A stretch of 64,000 nucleotides of DNA from Desulforamulus ferrireducens. Lineage in GTDB: Bacteria > Bacillota > Desulfotomaculia > Desulfotomaculales > Desulfotomaculaceae. The notes under the pieces are model-generated. The model searched no databases and was not told the DNA's origin. It was given only the letters and a program-made list of their open reading frames with translations. This document shows positions 61,892-64,000 of this stretch, piece after piece (position 1 is the first letter of the stretch; every line of letters starts with the position of its first letter). The DNA is taken from assembly GCF_002005145.1 (NCBI RefSeq), contig NZ_CP019698.1:1674001-1738000 (forward strand), written 5' to 3'. The translations under genes were made by a program, and so were the position numbers.

Positions 61892-62827
61892 ATGGCCAAT
61901 GAATTGAAAATAACCGAGGAGTTTGATATCGCCATTGTAGGCTGTGGTCCCGCAGGCCTTGCCGCCGCTATTAACGGTGCTATTCGTAAAAAGAAGATTG
62001 GCATCTTCGGTACGGATTTTTGCAGCCCTAAATTACATCATGCTCCACACATCGATAACTATCTGGGTTTGCCGGAGCTAACCGGTGATGAACTGCGCCA
62101 ACGCTTTTTGGCACATGTGCAAAAAATGGGGTTAAAAATTAATGACAACAAGGTCACAGGAGTCTATCCCTCAGAGGGCGGTTTTACCCTGCAGTCCAGG
62201 GATAAGTTTTACCAGGCTAAGGCCGTTATTATAGCCACCGGGGTAAATACAGTAAAACCCATTGAACAGGAATTGGATTATCTGGGTAGGGGTGTTAGCT
62301 ATTGCGCCACCTGTGACGGTCCGTTGTATAAAGGTAAAAGGGTGATCGTTCTGGCCTATAATCGGGAGGGATTGGAGGAAGCAAATTTCCTGGCAGAAAT
62401 TGCTGCCGAGGTAATCTTGGTTTCCCAAGTGAAAGAAAGGGATGCCGCGGGAATTCATCTGGATGAAAGAATAAAACAAATAAAAGGTAAGCCGGTGGGT
62501 ATTCTGGGAGAAATGTGGTCTACCGGAGTAAAATTGGAGGATCAAGAGCTCAAGGCCGATGGCATTTTTATTATCAGGGATTCAGTATTGCCAGACCAAT
62601 TGGTGCCAGGTCTTAATGTAAGTAATCAAGGCATAGAAGTGGATCGCCACTGTGCCACCAATATCCCAGGCATATTTGCTGCCGGTGATTGCACCGGCAT
62701 GCCTTACCAGCTTAGCAAAGCAACCGGCGAAGGTCAGGTAGCCGCCTTAAGTGCCGTGAAGTACCTGGATGAATTGAAAAATAAGGCCAAGAAAGAGTTG
62801 GCCAATTGGGATAGGGGGCGGAGATAA
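61892..62827 (+). CDS. Thioredoxin-reductase-like flavoprotein, 3' end altered by intron
   Basis: A 311-residue relative of thioredoxin reductase. FAD motif IVGCGPAGLAAAINGAIRKK, redox motif CATC in SYCATCDGPLYKGKR and a C-terminal FAD motif GIFAAGDCTGMPYQLSKATG. The nucleotide motif is degenerate (VLAYNREGLEEANFL instead of GxGxxG), so it may use ferredoxin or no pyridine nucleotide, as in ferredoxin-dependent or flavin-type reductases (inference). The last residues (NWDRGRR) and the stop come from the end of an antisense group II intron. Removing 62805-63451 restores a frame ending ELATV. ATG 61892 follows AGAGGTGAAGAT. Confidence 0.85.
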   Translation: MANELKITEEFDIAIVGCGPAGLAAAINGAIRKKKIGIFGTDFCSPKLHHAPHIDNYLGLPELTGDELRQRFLAHVQKMGLKINDNKVTGVYPSEGGFTLQSRDKFYQAKAVIIATGVNTVKPIEQELDYLGRGVSYCATCDGPLYKGKRVIVLAYNREGLEEANFLAEIAAEVILVSQVKERDAAGIHLDERIKQIKGKPVGILGEMWSTGVKLEDQELKADGIFIIRDSVLPDQLVPGLNVSNQGIEVDRHCATNIPGIFAAGDCTGMPYQLSKATGEGQVAALSAVKYLDELKNKAKKELANWDRGRR

Positions 62828-63451
62828 TCTCCGCCGACCCTCCCACACCACCGGACATGCGGGTCCGCATCCGGCGGTTGGCCAGGGTTAACTGATTACT
62901 CAGCGATTAAGATTAAGATTTTCGGGTATTGTGCCGGAGAATTCTCAGCCCTTCTATAAGCCATTGTGGCTTCACCACTCCCTCTTATAGATAGGTCTCT
63001 GTTTCAGAGACAACTGCTATCAGCAAATTCTCTCGAACGCACCGTTCTTAGTCTGCCCTGACCTTCGGCCCTTCCTCGTTAGGAGTACTATGGCCTCTGC
63101 TGACTTCTGCCGACTCAGCCGACACCTCACGATGCGGGTTGGTATTGTTAAGGACTTCCTTACCATTACCGGATCGACAGACCTCCCCGGATAAGAGCGA
63201 TAACTTTCATCCCATGTACCTGCCACATTTACTGCTATATCCCTTGGCAACATAGGGCTTTGACTTGTCTGGCAGTCTTGCCCGAATATAACAGCCTCGA
63301 ATGTGATTCGTGTACCTCAGGTCGGGAATTTGCCTCCAGCTTCTTTCAGATTCCACCTCACGATGGACACCCTTGCTCTTGGCTAACAGTTGGTGTTGCC
63401 AACCCCTGTTCGGGACTTTCACCCTAAAGCTATCGCCCATGCCGGGCATAC
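62805..63451 (-). mobile_element. ORF-less group II intron
   Basis: Read on the minus strand, the sequence starts GTATGCCCGGC, soon followed by GGGTGAAAGTCCC, CAAGGGTGTCCATCG and later AAGTCAGCAGAGGCCATAGT: the conserved 5' half of a bacterial group II intron. Near the 3' end a domain-V-like hairpin (62848-62877) has an 8-bp lower stem, a 2-nt bulge and a short upper stem, followed by a domain-VI-like stem ending CCTATCCCAAT. The reverse-transcriptase ORF normally found in domain IV is absent; only about 0.2 kb separates the two halves. It lies right after a terminator hairpin, as group IIC introns do. Boundaries are inferred, within a few bases. Confidence 0.82.
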
Positions 63452-63457
63452 CAGTTT

Positions 63458-63486
63458 AAAAGAGAAGGCTGTCGGCCTTCTCTTTT
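63458..63486 (-). terminator. Terminator hairpin at the intron insertion site
   Basis: AAAAGAGAAGGC (63458-63469) pairs perfectly with GCCTTCTCTTTT (63475-63486), 5-nt loop. It can end the acetyltransferase gene on the minus strand and, before the insertion, also the thioredoxin-reductase-like gene. The intron begins 7 bp beyond the stem. Confidence 0.88.
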
Positions 63487-63937
63487 ATGCTAACCTTTTA
63501 ATCATGGGGAAATTTTCATCATCAAAGGCATAATGTACTCCTGGCATAAAACCTTGCTTGCCCCAGAAACCCACTGAATTATCCTTGGGGTTTAGTGAAT
63601 TGACCCTGGCTTCCAGAGTAATACACTGGCAGCCCTGTTCACGCAGCAATTGTTCTAAGAGCTGGTAGACTTTACTCCCCAGTTTTTGACTTCTACAGCA
63701 AAGAGGTATCTGTAGAAAATGTATCTTACATTGAAGAATGCCGTTACGGTTTTTCTTCAAATCATAGATTAAATAGAAATTTTCGTCTTCCATTTCGTCG
63801 TTGTGCTGTAAAGAAGTCAAATAAATACAACCCGGAAACAATACATGATTAACATAAGTTAAAGGATGACCCAAAAGCTTTTCCAGAGCTTCCTGGAATA
63901 AGGCCAATTGAGTATTAGGAGCAGCCAACAATTGCAT
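63485..63937 (-). CDS. GNAT-type acetyltransferase
   Basis: A 150-residue protein with the GNAT pattern: a central beta strand (ILQCKIHFLQIPLCCRSQ) followed by GSKVYQLLEQLLREQGCQ, the acetyl-CoA-binding helix, and GFWGKQGFMPG near the end. The acetyl-CoA loop is degenerate (CCRSQKLGS for R/Q-x-x-G-x-G/A). The Met at 63937 lies 10 nt after AGGAG; the ATG at 63946 is too close to it. Substrate unknown. It ends at the terminator next to the intron. Confidence 0.7.
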   Translation of the reverse strand: MQLLAAPNTQLALFQEALEKLLGHPLTYVNHVLFPGCIYLTSLQHNDEMEDENFYLIYDLKKNRNGILQCKIHFLQIPLCCRSQKLGSKVYQLLEQLLREQGCQCITLEARVNSLNPKDNSVGFWGKQGFMPGVHYAFDDENFPMIKRLA

Positions 63938-64000
63938 AAGAAACATACTCCTTTTAGTTTACTAGTTATAATATATCACTACTGTGTACAATAAGAAACC

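Follow-up and report, generated by a model that had tools for sequence, protein, structure and literature searches.

The 64,000-nt stretch of the Desulforamulus ferrireducens genome analysed here (the window) contains a 647-nt element with the features of a group II intron and no RT gene, inserted on the minus strand between a thioredoxin-reductase-like gene and a GNAT-like acetyltransferase gene. The locus raises the question of how an intron that encodes no protein reached this site, and whose RT, if any, it uses. The genome of the window (G000; 3.24 Mb, one contig) was compared with congeners and more distant genomes.

Anatomy, boundaries and target of the intron

Searches with Rfam models recovered D1, D2/D3 and D5/D6 in canonical order on the minus strand, all above the gathering scores (Table 1). 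A bulged A was located in D6, 8 nt from the 3' end (a bulged UA in the predicted fold), and the minimum free energy of the folded intron was 4.5 sd below that of shuffled sequences. Neither an RT open frame nor RT similarity was detected within the 647 nt by ORF list and similarity search. The ends satisfy the group II form (5' GUNNG-type, GTATG; 3' AY, CCCAAT) in four copies. Boundaries were set by these same-genome copies, in which unrelated flanks ending in TG precede GTATGCCC and CCCAAT is followed by T, and also by orthologous empty sites in congeners. Chance or spurious domain matches were ruled out by the Rfam scores, the extra copies and the empty sites, and a circularly permuted group II intron by the position of D1 before D5 on the minus strand (Rfam). 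The element of the window is a complete group II intron without its own RT gene; splicing and joining of the exons are predicted. The preliminary description had reported both conserved ends and no maturase gene, and the identical ends of the four copies and the lack of an RT inside bear this out. The covariance-model search that it proposed recovered domain V (RF00029, 43.8 bits) along with D1 and D2/D3, and the search for related introns with the predicted boundaries yielded three further copies with identical ends.

Table 1. Positions of the intron, its parts and its neighbours in the window.
Feature	Position	Strand	Basis
ORF-less group IIC intron, 647 nt	62805..63451	-	Rfam domains; three further copies with same ends; empty sites
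Intron ends	5' GTATGCCC at 63451; 3' CCCAAT at 62805	-	Copies and empty sites
Domain I core, RF02001	63196..63367	-	Rfam, 143.2 bits
Domains II/III region, RF01998	63068..63141	-	Rfam, 65.3 bits
Domains V and VI, RF00029	62805..62879	-	Rfam, 43.8 bits (gathering score 40); fold
EBS1 (CAGA) in D1 loop GCCAGACA	63268..63271	-	Pairs with IBS1; covaries with exons
IBS1 (ACTG), final 4 nt of 5' exon	63452..63455	-	Junction sequence and pairing
Remnant of N-terminal part of lost RT gene, forming D4a	62930..63042	-	Aligns to in-frame RT starts; alignments
D4a hairpin A, GTCTCTGAAACAGAGAC	62995..63011	-	Fold and comparison
D4a helix B (TCTATAAG/CTTATAGA), apical GTGGTGAAGCCAC	62953..62991	-	Compensated double substitutions in non-coding lineage; folds
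Convergent terminator hairpin TAAAAGAGAAGGC-CGACA-GCCTTCTCTTTTA, target landmark	63457..63487		Sequence; kept between same two genes in congeners
GNAT-like acetyltransferase gene, terminator source	63485..63946	-	PF00583, E=0.0013, 19.5 bits, slightly below cut-off
Thioredoxin-reductase-like flavoprotein gene, last codons from intron antisense strand	61892..62827	+	Pyr_redox_2, 88.1 bits; TIGR01292 below cut-off

The intron begins 5-6 nt past a hairpin with a stem of 12-13 bp and lies on the same strand as the GNAT-like gene. Owing to its short T tail, this hairpin is absent from the output of a simple terminator scan; its inverted repeat of 12-13 bp is nevertheless evident in the sequence and conserved in congeners. 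Terminator hairpins stand directly before all four G000 copies, before three remnants in the congener G003 and before a copy in Desulforudis. EBS1 is carried by a D1 loop of the form GC-NNNN-CA; in the window family it reads CAGA, which pairs with exon TCTG, forms a wobble with TTTG and makes three pairs with ACTG, giving 3-4 EBS1-IBS1 pairs in each of the four copies, the short pairing of group IIC. The group IIC target choice assigned earlier agrees with the hairpin before every copy and with this 3-4-bp pairing; of the claimed position 7 bp past a perfect terminator hairpin, the terminator target stands and the spacer is corrected to 5-6 nt. Over 31 relatives, EBS1 and exon paired at a mean of 3.05 of 4 positions compared with 1.92 after shuffling (0 of 100,000 shuffles reached the observed value), and this coupling indicates that the predicted junctions are right. 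The resident full-length introns have EBS1 AAAG with exon CTTT, and the ORF-less family has a target specificity of its own. A natural retargeting event was observed in a full-length-family IIC copy with a broken RT gene (L005, G000:2230639), whose EBS1 is now ATGC with target GCAT.

Each of the eight congeners that were searched carries a close relative of the thioredoxin-reductase-like gene (73-85% identity), and the empty-site comparison proposed earlier found no intron at this locus in any of them. The protein ends in ...LATV-stop in four of them, with the hairpin directly next in three of those four, and in-silico removal of the intron converts the present end ...ELANWDRGRR-stop into ...ELATV-stop. 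These two results indicate that the insertion rewrote the C-terminus, in agreement with the earlier claim that an intron antisense to this gene replaced ATV-stop by ANWDRGRR-stop. Since the shared convergent terminator is now 647 nt farther from the gene, its mRNA should run antisense through the intron. The thioredoxin-reductase-like protein (61892-62827) carries a CATC motif, and its usual NADPH-binding glycine motif is seemingly replaced by VIVLAYNREG (judged by sequence); the protein may use another electron donor.

The four ORF-less copies in G000 are located at 1736805 (window), 510130, 498317 and 2340900. Three are identical, and the copy at 2340900 lacks 6 nt, a single repeat unit of a short tandem array. 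All share the junctions TG before GTATG and T after CCCAAT within unrelated flanks, which ruled out segmental duplication as the copy source; the pattern points to recent retrotransposition. Copy 2340900 sits after ..CCTTTTTTG and before TGCGACAGG.., that is, between G1 and U2 of an outer group II intron of 2.2 kb encoding a 514-aa RT. In other genomes the outer intron is uninterrupted, with terminator and T before GTGCGAC, and the G003 version is 99% identical; therefore the outer intron settled behind the terminator first. Its first G, together with the same hairpin, would then have formed the target (TTTG followed by T) for the ORF-less intron, and the outer intron would splice only once the inner one has left. 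The outer intron (L026, G000:2337500-2343500, minus strand) represents, along with L123-L133, a second terminator-associated group II intron type with the 5' end GTGCGACAGGCAGTCGC and a 514-aa RT without GIIM Pfam match; wherever its 5' junction can be read, the locus lies directly after a terminator hairpin, and Rfam D1 models match it poorly.

Domain IV and the relatives of the intron in other genomes

The D4 segment retains the beginning of an RT gene, in which the start codon is now GTG and a stop follows after 12 codons. In a public genome search the D4 motif was found within the first ~50 codons of class-C RT genes of Moorella, Fervidicola, Desulfovirgula and an Armatimonadetes MAG; in the first three and others, the remnant aligns to RT starts that are in frame. 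Its occurrence inside RT genes of genome contigs ruled out the motif as a marker of ORF-less introns only and revealed the origin of the ORF-less D4, which is an RT gene start left by an internal deletion. Upstream of D5, the sequence is suggestive of a C-terminal RT remnant.

In the full-length introns the same stretch folds as hairpin A and helix B, with a GUGGUGAAGCCAC-like hairpin at the apex, and the ORF-less RNA takes the same D4a fold (predicted folds). Helix B of three independent ORF-less sequences reads UCUAUAAG/CUUAUAGA, UCCGUAGG/CCUACUGA and UUCUGAG/CUCAGAA. Pairwise comparison of G000, G063 and G169 revealed 2-4 compensated double substitutions, no single-sided ones and one broken pair; when equally many changes were placed at random, 2.3%, 0.3% and 0.09% of trials retained as many helix B pairs. 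These comparisons are not mutually independent, were registered by hand and cover four ORF-less sequences, three of them independent. The apical GTGGTGAAGCCA was invariant in all four ORF-less alignment rows. With the full-length introns included, 192 of 209 D4a cells were paired compared with a shuffled mean of 163 (reached in 0 of 20,000 shuffles), relatedness inflating this control. The RT gene is thus dead, while the shape of its RNA has been preserved. In IIA introns D4a is known to be where the RT binds, according to PMC2882425, and the simplest reading is therefore that selection acts on the binding of a trans-supplied RT; by this analogy, the kept D4a is probably a handle that an RT grips.

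The same deletion form was found in three other genomes. A Desulforudis MAG (G063), placed in the same order as G000, has a complete ORF-less copy of 637 nt with 78% identity over the full length; the congener G003 has three decayed copies, and G169, a host outside the order, a D3-D4 fragment. No full-length parent with the same RNA was found above ~80% identity over the 5' half. In the D1 tree, the window copies, those of G003 and Desulforudis and one full-length G095 intron were grouped (98/94), separate from the resident full-length introns of G000. Among the full-length introns of the tree, that G095 intron (L041) is the closest relative, with ~75% identity over the first 274 nt and a long branch. 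The ORF-less introns to the exclusion of G095 were weakly grouped by D1 alone (82/0), and the basis for that grouping is the shared deletion. A recent one-off deletion from a resident full-length intron was ruled out by 70% identity and the separate clade. Viral contigs contained no D4 motif (motif search), and plasmids gave partial matches only, none covering 80% of the intron.

Other derivatives were observed alongside the family. A 659-nt intron in G000 (L007 and L090, G000:158040-158695, ~158 kb) that keeps D4a and 52-54 RT codons is a second, independent and younger ORF deletion within the resident full-length IIC family. L042 (G044) and L058 (G118) are RT-less IIC introns of ~440 nt, in which D4 is wholly lost and a D5-like 3' end lies close to D1. 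In the IIC introns L085 (G003:402500-408000), L057 (G136) and L036 (G140), segments of a different group II intron type break up D1 or D3, so that these are mosaics or twintrons.

RT sources and explanations for the spread of the intron

Five intact full-length IIC introns are present in G000, each with a 470-aa RT/maturase (E=1e-129 to TIGR04416) containing the GIIM maturase domain, and broken RT genes occur in addition; the intact introns are ~70% identical to the ORF-less family in the 5' half. The search for full-length relatives in the genome, proposed in the preliminary description, was thereby successful, and its view that a maturase would have to act from elsewhere is consistent with five intact class-C-type RTs outside an intron that contains none. 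One IIC RT gene of G000 (L030 1930-6817, G000:2322000-2331000) is split at its GTPQGG motif by inserted DNA with three consecutive tyrosine-recombinase-like genes. G003 contained no class-C RT; the RTs of G003 and G169 are only 33-45% identical to the 470-aa RT, and the G063 assembly (a MAG) contained no intact class-C RT, just a 42-residue fragment. The ORF-less copies of G000 are fresh, those of G003 decayed. Across these four genomes, one of them a MAG, copy state and RT presence fit dependence on a class-C RT.

The observations are best explained, with a probability of about 0.78, by a non-autonomous deletion derivative of a group IIC intron that is spliced and mobilised in trans; in all likelihood, the ORF-less intron spreads by parasitising related RT-making introns. 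An ancestral full-length IIC retrointron would have lost most of its RT gene by internal deletion, keeping the ribozyme (D1-D3, D5-D6) and the gene start that doubles as the D4a RNA hairpins. An RT/maturase encoded by a full-length IIC intron at another genomic locus would bind D4a and the core, allow the ORF-less intron to be spliced from readthrough transcripts, and copy it into new sites marked by a terminator hairpin and a short EBS1-IBS1 match. Splicing, binding and mobility in trans, as well as which RT acts, are the parts of this mechanism that we infer. As the resident RT introns are only ~70% identical and have a different EBS1, their recognition of the ORF-less intron is not certain.

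The 514-aa RT of the outer twintron intron, a different terminator-associated type, could instead be the driver, since it adjoins the 2340900 copy and its own intron likewise follows terminators. We regard this as improbable: identity between that RT and the class-C RT is only ~39%, the IIC D1 models fit its intron poorly (39 bits for RF02003, under the cut-off), and the outer intron is also present in G003, at 99% identity, where the ORF-less copies have nevertheless decayed. Those three decayed copies in a congener without class-C RT, along with the loss of the ORF, would suit an immobile, dying IIC relic in which splicing and movement are lost; such a relic is similarly hard to reconcile with three identical copies at unrelated sites, which mean recent spread in G000, with well-scoring D5/D6 and D1, with an EBS1 that fits its sites and with a maintained D4a. 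We consider it slightly less probable still that the ribozyme is self-sufficient, splicing hydrolytically without protein and being copied by a cellular or unrelated RT or by recombination. The ORF-less C.te.I1 does splice in vitro without known RT (PMC4424553), and the complete copy in G063, where no intact class-C RT was found, makes RT-free persistence or splicing possible. This account is opposed by the maintenance of D4a, by intact IIC RTs where copies are fresh, and by a terminator-plus-IBS1 target typical of IIC retromobility. Within the preferred reading of a trans-mobilised derivative, a more tentative proposal, which we hold to be somewhat less probable than its negation, is a long-lived, purely non-autonomous IIC lineage: after one old RT deletion, it would have persisted and moved between families under selection on D4a, borrowing successive RTs.

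Known systems and significance

For the ORF-less TeI3 introns of T. elongatus, TeI4 RTs act as the 'drivers' of mobility (Mohr et al. 2010, PMC2882425), and the best reading by analogy is that the window family is the IIC counterpart of these Thermosynechococcus introns. Both show a single internal RT deletion, a D4a kept with compensating changes, EBS divergence, proliferation beyond the RT-coding parent, and twintrons, with an identical inner intron in TeI3. TeI3 keeps N- and C-terminal RT remnants, whereas here the N-terminal one is plain and the C-terminal one suggestive. Moreover, TeI3 is of CL/IIB1 type and targets genes, IS elements and introns within one genome; the present family belongs to subgroup IIC, targets terminators, occurs in several host families and has resident RT introns only ~70% identical to it, and in its twintron the inner intron sits between G1 and U2, not within D4, of the outer one.

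Full-length introns of group IIC (class C) are found behind intrinsic terminators (Robart et al. 2007, cited in PMC8919778); they resemble the window intron in ribozyme architecture, hairpin-plus-T-run target and short EBS1, and differ by the RT gene that is missing here. C.te.I1 of Clostridium tetani is likewise an ORF-less bacterial group II intron, but it is located within a gene, its genome contains no related RT, and it undergoes alternative splicing (PMC3919590; PMC4424553). The twintrons of Trichodesmium and T. elongatus (PMC4649490, PMC2882425) also contain a group II intron nested in another, whereas here the inner intron is an ORF-less IIC one that splits off the first nucleotide of the outer intron and re-uses its terminator as target. 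New aspects are the IIC/terminator setting, one deletion form in several host families and the insertion between G1 and U2; a literature search, with most subscription journals outside its coverage, retrieved no published description of such a family.

These results suggest that an RT-less IIC derivative can spread, and perhaps last, with just a ribozyme and a covarying D4a. The long-lived lineage, if real, would include as hosts the organism of the window and a congener, Desulforudis and one host outside the order, and would have decayed where class-C RT is lacking (G003) and multiplied where one is present (G000), as a bacterial analogue of SINEs. Fresh copies in the company of RTs and decayed or single copies without them form a natural test set for the reach of RTs onto foreign introns.
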